Source: Thiocapsa rosea | Lineage (GTDB): Bacteria; Pseudomonadota; Gammaproteobacteria; Chromatiales; Chromatiaceae | NCBI RefSeq assembly: GCF_003634315.1 | Contig: NZ_RBXL01000001.1 | Location: forward strand, 2,894,501 to 2,958,500 | Reading direction: 5' to 3' | Length of the DNA stretch: 64,000 bases | Shown here: one piece after another, positions 39,587 to 49,126 of the stretch | How the letters are laid out: each line of letters opens with the position of its first letter | Position numbering within the stretch: the first letter of the stretch is position 1 | Made by a program: the position numbers and the translations under genes | The notes under the pieces: model-generated | Told to the model about the DNA's origin: nothing | Seen by the model: the letters and a program-made list of their open reading frames with translations, nothing else | Databases searched by the model: none

Positions 39587-41029
39587 ATGGACCAAGCCCT
39601 CGCCCATCTCAAGGACCCCGACACCCCCATCGCCATCATCGGCCTGGGCTACGTCGGCCTGCCGCTCGCCGTGGAATTCGCCAAACACCGCCCCGTGGTC
39701 GGCTTCGACATCAACCAAACCCGCATCGCCGAGCTCAAAGCAGGTCGCGACACCACCCGCGAGACCAGCCCCGAAGACCTCGCCGCCGCCCGACACCTGA
39801 CCTACACCAGCGACCTCGGCGCTCTGTGCCGCTGCCGCATCTTCATCGTCACCGTGCCCACCCCGGTCGACGACTACAAGCGCCCCGACCTCACGCCCCT
39901 GATCAAAGCCTCCGAGACCGTCGGCAAGGTGCTCAAACCCGGCGACCTGGTCATCTACGAATCCACCGTCTACCCCGGCTGCACCGAGGAAGACTGCGTC
40001 CCCGTGCTCGCCCGCGCCTCCGGTCTGACTTACCTCCACACCGACCGCCGCACCGCAGCACCCGAGACACCCCCCAACCCCGACCGCCGAGCATCCGCCT
40101 CAGCCGCAGGTCGGATGAGCGCCGGCGACATCCGACACCCCGCCGAGGCCACGGACGAAGCCCCAACCCCACCCGACCACAACGGCTTCTACTGCGGCTA
40201 CTCCCCCGAGCGCATCAACCCCGGCGACCAGGAACACCGCCTCACCAACATCAAAAAGGTCACCAGCGGCTCCACCCCCGAGATCGCCGCCGTCGTCGAT
40301 GCCCTCTACAACGAGATCATTACCGCCGGCACCCACCCGGCCAGCAGCATCCGCGTCGCCGAAGCCGCCAAGGTCATCGAGAACACCCAGCGCGATCTCA
40401 ACATCGCCCTCATGAACGAGCTGGCCCTGATCTTCGACAAGCTCGGCATCGACACCCTCGAGGTGCTGGAAGCCGCCGGGAGCAAATGGAACTTCCTCCC
40501 CTTCCGCCCCGGCCTGGTCGGCGGACACTGCATCGGTGTCGACCCCTACTATCTGACCCACAAAGCCGTCGCCATCGGCTACCACCCCGAGATCATTCTC
40601 GCCGGGCGACGCATCAACGACCGCATGGGCGCCCATGTCGCCGAGGCCGTGGTGAAGCTCATGCTCAAGAGCGGCATCGATGTCTGCGAAAGCCGCATCC
40701 TGGTCTTGGGACTCGCCTTCAAAGAGAACTGCCCGGACCTGCGCAACACCCGCGTCATCGACATCATCCTGGCCCTGCGCGACTACAACATCGCCGTGGA
40801 CTGCTACGACCCCTGGATCGACCGCGCCGAGGCCAAACACGAATACGGCCTCGACTGTCTACCCGAGGCCCCGGCGCCCGGAAGCTACGACGCCGTCATC
40901 CTCGCCGTCGCGCACCGCGATTTGGTCGAGTCGGGCGCGACCGGGATCCGCCGCTGGGCCAAACCCAAGGCGATCCTCTACGACGTTAAATCCGTTCTTC
41001 CGGTCAATACGGTGGACGGCCGGCTCTAG
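39587..41029 (+). CDS. tviB: UDP-N-acetylhexosamine 6-dehydrogenase, TviB/WecC type (only complete copy)
   Basis: 480 residues. NAD-binding [63 protein letters not shown], the central helix region [20 protein letters not shown], the catalytic cysteine in [12 protein letters not shown], and the C-terminal UDP-binding domain ([36 protein letters not shown]). It oxidises C6 of UDP-HexNAc to the uronic acid for surface polymer synthesis. Odd: about 48 extra residues between SGLTY and [11 protein letters not shown], encoded at about 40027-40180; this DNA contains a palindrome resembling the CGTAGGTCGGATTAGC repeat. Usual length is about 425-430, so this looks like an in-frame repeat insertion. Activity is therefore likely but unproven. 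Confidence 0.9.
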
Positions 41030-41068
41030 GCAACGCCCGGAGAGGCTCTCGCCATGTTGGGCACTGGT

Positions 41069-41284
41069 ATGACAACTGAAACCGAAATCCGCTTACGGGG
41101 TATGCGAGCCCTCATTGAAGCGCTCGGTCTGGTCGAAGCCGAGCGATTCGTGGTCTCCATCAACCGAGAACGGTTCGATTACACGACGTGGCGCCAAAAA
41201 GGCTTGCCCGATTTAAGCATCGAGCAAATCGCAGCCTGTGCGAACCAACTGTCGGCCGACCTCGACACCAAGCCGAGCGCCTGA
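41069..41284 (+). CDS. Small protein of unknown function, copy 1 (71 aa)
   Basis: 71 residues from ATG 41069; an in-frame ATG at 41054 exists but is out of frame in the second copy, so the later start is preferred. [37 protein letters not shown] and [13 protein letters not shown] suggest a compact helical protein, possibly antitoxin-like; family not identified. The paralog at 47832-48047 differs only by synonymous or near-neutral changes, and both sit between a dehydrogenase 3' end and a dehydrogenase fragment. Confidence 0.65.
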
Positions 41285-41287
41285 CGG

Positions 41288-41508
41288 TCACCGCCGGCAC
41301 CCACCCGGCCAGCAGCATCCGCGTCGCCGAAGCCGCCAAGGTCATCGAGAACACCCAGCCCGTTCTCAACATCGCCCTCATGAACAAGCTGGCCCTGATC
41401 TTCGACAAGCTCGGCATCGACACCCTCGAAGTGCTGGAAGCCGCCGGGAGCAAATGGAACGTCCTCCCCTTCCGCCCCGGCCTGGTCGGCGACCACTGCA
41501 TCGGAGTA
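41288..41508 (+). pseudogene. Dehydrogenase fragment B1 (central domain to catalytic Cys)
   Basis: Encodes [40 protein letters not shown] and [10 protein letters not shown], matching residues about 245-315 of the complete copy, with small changes (GG to GD before His-Cys). It ends abruptly at GCATCGGAGTA where a CTCGCTCCCACGC repeat begins. No start codon; remnant. Confidence 0.88.
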
Positions 41509-41940
41509 GTAGAACTCGCTCCCACGCTCCGCGTGGGAGTGTCGCCGGGACGCTCCGCGTCCCTGCTACCAGGTCAATGCGCACCCCCCGACGGTGCAGG
41601 CCTCACCAGCGCCCGGGCGCACTGCCCCGCGACGCAGAGCGTCGGGCCTACACTCCCACGCAGAGCGTGGGAGCGAGTTGGTGTGGGGCGTGGGAGCGAG
41701 TTGGTGTAGGGCGTGGGAGCGAGTTGGCGCAGGGCGTGGAAGCGAGTTGGCAGAGCACCAGCCACCTCGTGTTCGAACGCGCTCCCACGCGCCGAGATTG
41801 TGCAGAAACTCGCTCCCACGCTCCGCGTGGGAGTGTCGCCGGGACGCTCCGCGTCCCTGCCACCAAGTCGACGCGCCCCGCCAGCCATGCGTCGTGCGGC
41901 GCGGAACGTCGGGCCTACACGCCTACGCGAACGAACGTTG
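41509..41940. repeat. REP block interrupting dehydrogenase copy B, with a four-fold 23-bp tandem
   Basis: Contains two CTCCCACGCTCCGCGTGGGAG / GGGACGCTCCGCGTCCC blocks (41517, 41814) and, between them, four tandem copies of GCGTGGGAGCGAGTTGG with 6-7 variable bases each (41665-41755). Ends in GTTGGGAACGAG, which is joined to dehydrogenase sequence at 41942. Confidence 0.88.
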
Positions 41941-47791: not shown

Positions 47792-47831
47792 GCAACGCCC
47801 GGAGAGGCTCTCGCCATGTTGGAGCACTGGT

Positions 47832-48047
47832 ATGACAACTGAAACTGAAATCCGCTTACGGGGTATGCGAGCCCTCATTGAAGCGCTCGGTCTGGTCGAA
47901 GCAGAGCGATTCGTGGTCTCCATCAACCGAGAAAGGTTCGATTACACGACGTGGCGCCAAAAAGGCTTGCCCGATTTGAGCATCGAGCAAATCGCAGCAT
48001 GTGCGAACCAACTGTCGGCCGATCTCGACACGAAGCCGAGCGCCTAA
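47832..48047 (+). CDS. Small protein of unknown function, copy 2 (71 aa)
   Basis: 71 residues, the same protein as at 41069-41284. The surrounding DNA (3' end of the dehydrogenase, GGAGAGGCTCTCGCCATG leader, small gene, then dehydrogenase central fragment) is duplicated as one block. Coding identity is maintained while neighbouring fragments decay, which may mean recent duplication or selection. GGAGAGG about 25 bases upstream is a possible leader signal. Confidence 0.65.
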
Positions 48048-48857
48048 CGGTCACCGCCGGCACCCACCCGGCCAGCAGCATCCGCGTTGCCGAAGCCGCC
48101 AAGGTCATCGAGAACACCCAGCGCGATCTCAACATCGCCCTCATGAACGAGCTGGCCCTGATCTTCGACAAGCTCGGCATCGACACCCACGAAGTGCTGG
48201 AAGCCGCCGGGAGCAAATGGAACGTCCTCCCCTTCCGCCCCGGCCTGGTCGGCGGACACTGCATCGGAGTAGAACTCGCTCCCACGCTCCGCGTGGGAGT
48301 GTCGCCGGGACGCTCCGCGTCCCTGCCACCACGTCGACGCGCCCCGCCAGCCATGCGTCGTGCGGCGCGGAACGTCGGGCCTACACGCCGACGCGAACGA
48401 ACGTTGGGAACGAGAACGCGCTCATCCTCGCCGGGCAACGTATCAACGACCGCATGGGCGCCCATGTCGCCGAGACCGTGGTCAAACTCATGCTCAATAA
48501 CAGCGTCGGCGTCTGCAACAGCCGCATCCTGGTCCTCGGCTTCGCCTTCAAGGAAAACTGCCCGGACCTGCGCAACACCCGCGTCATCGACATCGTCCTG
48601 GCCCTGCGCGACTAAAAAATCGCGGTGGACTGCTACGACCCTTGGATCGACCGAGCCGAGGCCAAACACGATTACGGCCTCGACCGTCTGCCCGAGGCCC
48701 CGGCGCCCGGCAGCTACGATGCTGTCATCCTCGCCGTCGCGCACCGCGACTTCATCGCGATGGGGGCGACCGGGATCCGCCGTTGGGCCAAACCCAAGTC
48801 GATCCTCTATGACGTGAAATCTGTTCTATCGTCGATACGGTCGACGGGCGCCTCTAA
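48048..48857 (+). pseudogene. Dehydrogenase copy F: two fragments split by a REP block, with a nonsense change
   Basis: F1 (48048-48270) encodes [20 protein letters not shown] to GGHCIGV. The REP block (48270-48410) is like that in copies B and E. F2 (48409-48857) encodes [20 protein letters not shown] to [10 protein letters not shown], then an in-frame TAA at 48613-48615 (GACTAAAAAATC versus GACTACAACATC), then [20 protein letters not shown] and a shifted end after VKSVL. Non-functional. Confidence 0.88.
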
Positions 48858-48882
48858 AGTCAGTTCCGAGAATCGTCACCCC

Positions 48883-49126
48883 GACTGCTACGACCCCTGG
48901 ATCGACCGCGCCGAGGCCAAGCACGAATACGGCCTTGAGTGTCTACCCGAGGCTCCGGCGCCCGGCAGTTACGACGCCGTTATCTTCGCCGTCGCCCATC
49001 GCGATCTCATCGAAATGGGCGTGATCGGGATCCGATGATGGGCCAAACCCGAGTCGATCCTCTACGATCTGAATCCGTTCTGCCGGTTAAACGCGTTGAA
49101 GGCCGTCTCTACGCGAATTCAAGTTG
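48883..49126 (+). pseudogene. Dehydrogenase fragment G (last remnant)
   Basis: [38 protein letters not shown] and VIGIR then TGA (49036-49038); beyond it WAKPESILYDLN is recognisable in degraded form to about 49126. Preceded by TCAGTTCCGAGAATCGTCAC (48861-48880), which resembles the 5' flank of the hexanucleotide elements (37094). Confidence 0.85.

Follow-up and report, generated by a model that had tools for sequence, protein, structure and literature searches.

A window of 64,000 nucleotides from Thiocapsa rosea (G000:C1:2894501-2958500) carries an intact tviB-type gene, here called A, followed by six broken relatives, B to G (Table 1). We read this array as the relics of a multi-copy tviB family, set in a glycan island rich in repeats, in which repeat-driven decay was accompanied by recombination between the copies, and we give this reading a probability of roughly 0.77. 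The array holds up as real; part of it is old and most of it is a graveyard, and its special point is that one block of repetitive extragenic palindromic (REP) sequence is joined to several C-terminal tails of the gene. Coordinates are window positions unless marked; the genome comprises 6,111,855 bases in two contigs, the main one of 5,890,510 bp.

Gene A matches NF011729, the family of TviB UDP-N-acetylglucosamine (UDP-GlcNAc) C-6 dehydrogenases, with 606.5 bits (cut-off 592), and further matches TIGR03026 and the Pfam families PF03721, PF00984 and PF03720. The segment with C315, D319, P320 and Y321 is present in A, as judged from an alignment of 35 proteins that included A and a second copy described below and left out B to G. 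Gene A is accordingly annotated as a predicted TviB-type UDP-GlcNAc 6-dehydrogenase gene. The fragments were mapped by blastn of gene A against the window, the limits of the pieces being given in gene coordinates, and their places agree within a few bases with those of an earlier, sequence-only reading of this DNA, which had described one complete gene and six pieces (the end of G lies at 49111, against 49126 in that reading). Since the repeat families of the window are 88-300 nt long at 60-98% identity, chance is excluded as an explanation of the array.

The lesion in B, E and F begins at the same base, directly after CACTGCATCGG. There, 58 nt of A (40537-40594), coding for 18 residues, are replaced by GTAG-tagged REP sequence, with a replacement length of 156 nt in E and F and of 453 nt in B. 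The net gain is +98 nt (E, F) or +395 nt (B), each of which is 2 mod 3, so that the frame is changed in all three copies. Because the lost residues include D319, P320, Y321, Y322, L323 and T324, all invariant in the 35 aligned proteins, B, E and F are predicted to be dead as dehydrogenases. The foreign stretch opens in B, D, E and F with the 18-mer GTAGAACTCGCTCCCACG, which has no other mismatch-free site in the window; in B it holds two REP stretches, and of these the second (41807-41957) is the closer to the block found in the other copies. Compared with shuffled sequences, the block of E has a better fold (z -2.77; 3/200 shuffles as good). These results bear out the claim of the sequence-only reading that B, E and F share one lesion, and the alignment places the REP junction at the same codon in the three copies.

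Copy D carries the block at another upstream place, after AVDC at gene position 1217, with the same downstream junction as B, E and F. One open frame of 253 aa (44882-45643) spans the block together with the second tail and the greater part of the first. The same REP block between tandem C-terminal domains had been recognized before; to this is added a further internal gap, D being without gene positions 777-984, in whose place stands a stretch with a different GTAG-type repeat (44750-44780). The junction between block and tail occurs at four places of this genome (best E-values 3.8e-122 or better), and none of the 10 other genomes of the genus had a match spanning it among the matches listed (best E-values 9.7e-55 or weaker), which supports the proposal that the lesion arose once.

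A comparison of the block with the sequence behind it indicates that the copies have not simply been inherited whole. Over 151 nt the blocks differ at one site (B-D), two (B-F), three (D-F), four (B-E and E-F) or five (D-E). The first 50 nt of the tail behind the block are conserved in all copies, with 0-4 differences, and the following 124 nt show 9-14 differences in the six pairs, the identity dropping just past the block. Fisher tests of this contrast gave a p value of 8.5e-5 for B-D and of 0.012-0.032 for four pairs. The tails resemble different alleles of the genus: over gene positions 1206-1325, E is nearest to Thiocapsa sp. KS1 and the D tail D2 nearest to A (95.8% in both cases), and over 1326-1442, E is nearest to A and to G001b (94.9% each) and D2 to C (91.5%). 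With a near-identical block joined to tails of different alleles, block and tails must therefore have been re-joined by recombination, in agreement with the recombination between copies suggested earlier from the structure of D. The contrast also rules out a simple duplication of the broken allele as the whole story. The re-duplication of that allele, as first proposed, is insufficient for the block and its tails.

The stretches A-spacer-B and E-spacer-F show 0-4 differences per 50 nt from ~40945 to the end of B1, with A and E identical over gene positions 1348-1443, and they represent a duplicated unit. The same spacer is found in another species of the genus (genome G001), where it sits after a PIN-domain gene (PF01850). 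The joint between spacer and tviB lies at ~729 in G001 and at 732-736 here, a 3-nt difference. Because this joint is common to the window and G001, part of the array is considered old, and the duplication joint would be either older than the species or passed between species. A recent local amplification alone is rejected on the same ground, and also because segments of the fragments frequently have a nearer relative in another species than in A. In the G001 genome, tviB is present as three open copies of full length and a fourth truncated at residue 387, all within 49 kb, with pseB and pseC ~7 kb past the last tviB copy, and its locus is a less decayed version of such an array.

Behind the spacer, the partial tviB of G001 (L159 14760-14844) runs to gene position 790 and then gives way to REP-like sequence, a further case of a REP-linked break in this gene. 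The small spacer open reading frame (ORF) is present in two copies in the window (the second within 47791-48053), the PIN-domain neighbour of G001 being lost here, and it is possibly an orphan antitoxin. A tviB piece also precedes a DUF2887 gene twice in G001 (L160, L161); there tviB is cut off at ~1160, and the DUF2887 side is ~50 nt longer. This joint was considered as a second sign of age and ruled out, tviB reaching 1183 in the window.

The intact genes themselves carry probable traces of exchange. The array has one complete gene, as had been noted, but a second intact copy is located elsewhere in the genome, at G000:C1:3286919, ~351 kb away and with 91% protein identity to A. The third-position divergence between the two is 5.1% in the N-terminal part and 23.4% in the C-terminal part, a contrast unequalled among the 66 pairs compared (Fisher 8.4e-8). 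For 11 genes of the genus, the pairwise homoplasy index (PHI) test gave p values of 0.001 for the whole gene and 0.011 for the C-terminal part. Trees built per segment had low support, and the divergence contrasts were relied on in their place. Taken together, A and the second copy are mosaic, probably through exchange among copies.

The decay of the fragments was followed by their private changes, which amount to 45 nonsynonymous (N) and 22 synonymous (S) in ten own fragments versus 96 N and 114 S in 13 genes listed as intact (Fisher p 0.003), the neutral expectation being ~2.7 N per S; two of the 13 are doubtful, G004b having one private stop in the projection and G001e two overlapping frames. 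Outside the C-terminal part, the values are 19 N and 3 S in the fragments versus 57 and 81 in the intact genes (p 1.2e-4). Outside the tails the decay is evident, and the relaxed-selection signal stems from there.

Several results weigh against the history proposed here. The block-versus-tail contrast is not significant at 0.05 for E-F (p 0.054), the six pairs of this test are not independent, and the conserved first 50 nt of the tail leave the exact exchange point unplaced. The PHI test on the own tails is marginal (p 0.047 and 0.034; 22 sites, 5 sequences), and approximately unbiased (AU) tests fail to reject a clade of A and the second copy in either part of the gene. In the C-terminal part, no difference was seen between fragments (26 N, 19 S) and intact genes (39 N, 33 S; p 0.85), a ratio which would fit either a recent exchange with working genes or some constraint on the tails. 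Finally, as the joints between tviB and DUF2887 differ, the age of the array is based on one joint and on the layout of G001.

The sequence-only reading had also considered a silent reservoir, in which the C-terminal tails are donors converting the active tviB genes, the UDP-binding domain of the enzyme changing over time. We regard this as unlikely. The contrast between A and the second copy, strongest of all the pairs compared, is in its favor, as are the identity of A and E over 1348-1443 next to 11.7% difference over 1206-1325, the closeness of the second copy to fragment D2 over 1007-1108 (96.1%), and the open tails of C, D2 and E, the fragment tails having no more N per S than the intact genes. 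However, the identity between A and E continues into the spacer and is explained by the duplication of the unit. In a nearest-copy scan of 25 windows, foreign genes were nearer to A in 14, own copies in 10, with one tie, and for the second copy the scan gave 10 own, 9 foreign and 6 ties; the own fragments do not clearly appear to be the preferred relatives of A in this comparison, which covers one genome of the species. The openness of C-terminal domains reported before holds for C, D2 and E and not for F, with one stop, or G, with several, and B is truncated. TviB is moreover a cytosolic enzyme, with no evident selection for variation.

There is also a small chance that the REP block, as a recombination joint with four C-terminal tails on one side and two or more contexts on the upstream side, belongs to a traffic that reaches the intact genes, the active TviB enzymes taking their UDP-binding domain from a common pool to which intact and silent tails both belong and keeping a uniform catalytic part. 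If such tail exchange with intact genes were true, it would amount to domain-wise concerted evolution of a sugar-nucleotide enzyme.

It is very improbable that the fragments yield useful proteins, for example from the frame of D, with two C-terminal domains connected via the block, or from lone tails. The single open frame of D through the block, the open tails and their N/S ratio like that of intact genes would agree with this idea, but an in-frame join has a one-in-three chance and no fragment keeps C315 and D319 together. In simulations, moreover, tails given 20 to 30 random substitutions were still free of stops in 61% to 47% of cases; since about half of random tails do so, the openness of a tail is by itself weak evidence. 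An assembly artefact, which the dense REPs and the several near-identical segments within 10 kb could suggest, is hardly credible, as the chromosome is a single 5.89-Mb contig in a 2-contig assembly, arguing against short-read collapse, the copies are several percent apart with distinct tails, and the joint between spacer and tviB recurs in the independent one-contig genome G001.

For the history of decay with recombination between copies, the following steps are proposed. A partial tandem duplication, comprising the gene, the spacer and a partial copy from near position 735, would predate the species split. Next, 58 nt of the active-site region would have given way to REP sequence, the simplest assumption being that this happened at no cost in a copy that was partial already. 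Homologous recombination over tviB and the REP block could have duplicated the unit, giving A-spacer-B and E-spacer-F, and the same recombination would have spread the block to further copies and linked it anew with other C-terminal tails, A remaining intact and the other copies decaying. The shared block, the one shared old joint, the block-versus-tail contrast and the mosaic intact genes support this history directly. We infer the order of the events, the direction of transfer and ordinary homologous recombination as the route.

The REP repeats are concentrated around the island. An exact REP core has 60 matches in the genome, of which 55 lie within G000:C1:2885505-2989370, a stretch of 104 kb around the glycan island (two sites were counted on both strands; the backward control gave 0). 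A similarity search placed 81/88 of the matches listed in the same stretch. The clean GTAG tag is missing from most copies. In a genome-wide profile search, the Y1_Tnp domain (PF01797) of REP-associated tyrosine transposase (RAYT) type was found at nine places, the best one with two stops, and none of the nine lies inside the island. Relatives likewise carry such repeats near tviB copies. Upstream of A, positions 35700-39566 hold dense REP dimers, several of them ~215 bases apart; the long open frames which both strands show there are probably spurious.

Gene A appears to carry a repeat of its own, in a loop of 56 residues between SGL and GYSPER. This loop has 8 residues in 66/70 measured TviB-like homologues (80 loci were sampled and 70 measured by script; among the ten unmeasured, L079 (KS1) is long and L115 short), and in the genus it ranges from 21 to 85. 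Given the 8-residue loop of most homologues, the insert in A is real, the support from its repeat being weaker than for the four long loops among the 70, which belong to Lamprocystis (L080 5323-5505), a Comamonadaceae metagenome-assembled genome (MAG) (L082 9056-9181), a proteobacterial MAG (L092 10445-10666) and Thermomonas (L093 10400-10591). Beyond the two intact genes, the genome of A has one further place that matches the loop repeat, over 51 nt with 80% identity. Further copies within the locus number 1 for L080 and 14 for L082, and matches in the genome number 43 for L093, counting itself and its own inverted half, and 9 for L092, itself counted. In the AlphaFold model of A, the predicted local distance difference test (pLDDT) score is under 50 at residues 155-197, 211-214 and 311-314 (mean of the whole model 81.7). 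In genome G004, the tviB loop contains a gene with a transposase domain of Tn5 type. The long-loop repeats, the low pLDDT and this transposase insertion mark the TviB loop as an insertion-tolerant spot, and unrelated palindromic repeat families appear to have been captured in frame by the same loop in several lineages. Such repeated capture provides a simple natural test of protein tolerance for inserts. A gene carrying DruA and Tn5 transposase domains splits the tviB of another Thiocapsa genome at the loop (L167 7646-9928, minus strand), and in a related genus the C-terminal part of tviB has a second, repeat-bearing insert within an open frame of 522 residues (L177 1961-2094).

Table 1. Features of the tviB array, in window positions; numbers after tviB or gene are positions in gene A.
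Feature	Position	Strand	Basis or remark
REP directly upstream of A	39482..39530	+	partner upstream of E at 46263-46311
A: intact, predicted tviB-type UDP-GlcNAc 6-dehydrogenase, 480 aa	39587..41029	+	family matches
Loop of A, 56 codons, with putative degenerate GTAG-type palindromic repeat in frame	40028..40195	+	
Spacer ORF, 76 aa, between A and B	41054..41284	+	no family match for the ORF
B: tviB 736-953, 453-nt foreign stretch (41505-41957), tviB 1007-1183, then DUF2887 fragment	41290..42132	+	blastn: gene 736-953 at 41290; 1007-1183 at 41956
Partial DUF2887 gene joined to B	42133..42353	+	PF11103
C: tviB C-terminal fragment, gene 1206-1442	43626..43863	+	blastn: gene 1206-1442 at 43626
D: tviB 688-776, GTAG-type repeat, 985-1217, lesion block (45054-45208), 1007-1442	44634..45643	+	blastn: gene 688-776 at 44634; 985-1217 at 44827; 1007-1442 at 45207
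E: longest dead copy (predicted); frame disrupted within the loop and at ~46940; lesion block 47201-47356	46360..47791	+	blastn: gene 1-422 at 46360; 573-956 at 46820; 1007-1443 at 47355
Type copy of the lesion block (in E): GTAG-tagged REP and degenerate inverted partner	47201..47356	+	
F: tviB 736-956, lesion block 48268-48423, 1007-1442 with in-frame stop	48053..48857	+	blastn: gene 736-956 at 48053; 1007-1442 at 48422
G: C-terminal fragment, gene 1213-1442, with stops and gaps	48883..49111	+	blastn: gene 1213-1442 at 48883

Profile matches identified ABC exporter, PseB and PseI genes downstream of the array. The region is therefore a pseudaminic-acid-type glycan island, with the array upstream of the pseudaminic-acid cluster; names of other island genes, beyond those matched by profiles, are presumed from their translations. 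The second intact copy is followed by genes which we take, from their translations, to be wbpB, wbpD and wbpE, and by a second ABC exporter with 69% DNA identity to that of the window. The DUF2887 gene next to B is split by ~1.7 kb (42354-44049), with a 26-bp direct repeat at 42328-42353 and 44050-44075; the insert carries a relB-yafQ toxin-antitoxin pair and tviB fragment C, and both parts of the gene are contiguous in three related loci (L160, L161, L169).

A literature search found no account of duplicated or silent dehydrogenase genes of glycan loci in the titles and abstract starts among the matches listed, and the accessible part of PMC8382752 contains nothing on the window locus. The array offers a well-resolved example of palindromic repeats and gene copies re-joining pieces of a metabolic gene in a glycan island.

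Gene conversion from silent cassettes, as in the pilE/pilS system, involves an intact gene beside incomplete, recombining homologous copies. The window likewise has an intact gene beside incomplete copies that recombine; unlike in pilE/pilS, the product is a cytosolic enzyme and several of the silent copies are broken. In enterobacteria, REP-mediated tandem duplication generates duplicated units from recombination between repeats. The units of the window resemble these in that they would have been duplicated through repeat recombination, whereas the repeats are here clustered in 104 kb and the tviB homology itself is long enough for exchange.

The Rickettsia palindromic elements, mentioned in the available part of PMC3733652, are captured in frame by protein genes, as the repeat in the loop of A appears to be; in the TviB case, by contrast, unrelated families entered one loop of one enzyme in several lineages. 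The same source, in the part available, describes short palindromic repeats that are GTAG-tagged and often clustered; in Thauera, GTAG-1 arrays flank EPS (exopolysaccharide) gene clusters, and REPs also occur within coding sequences, where they may be neutral if they fall in loops or linkers (PMC3733652). The window REPs appear to fit these published GTAG families, as far as that part describes them, being palindromic, GTAG-tagged at one end, clustered and intragenic (PMC3733652). They differ from the families as described there in that no Y1_Tnp place of RAYT type lies inside the island, that a REP replaces a 58-nt active-site segment and that a single block has been linked with four different tails of one multi-copy gene (PMC3733652).

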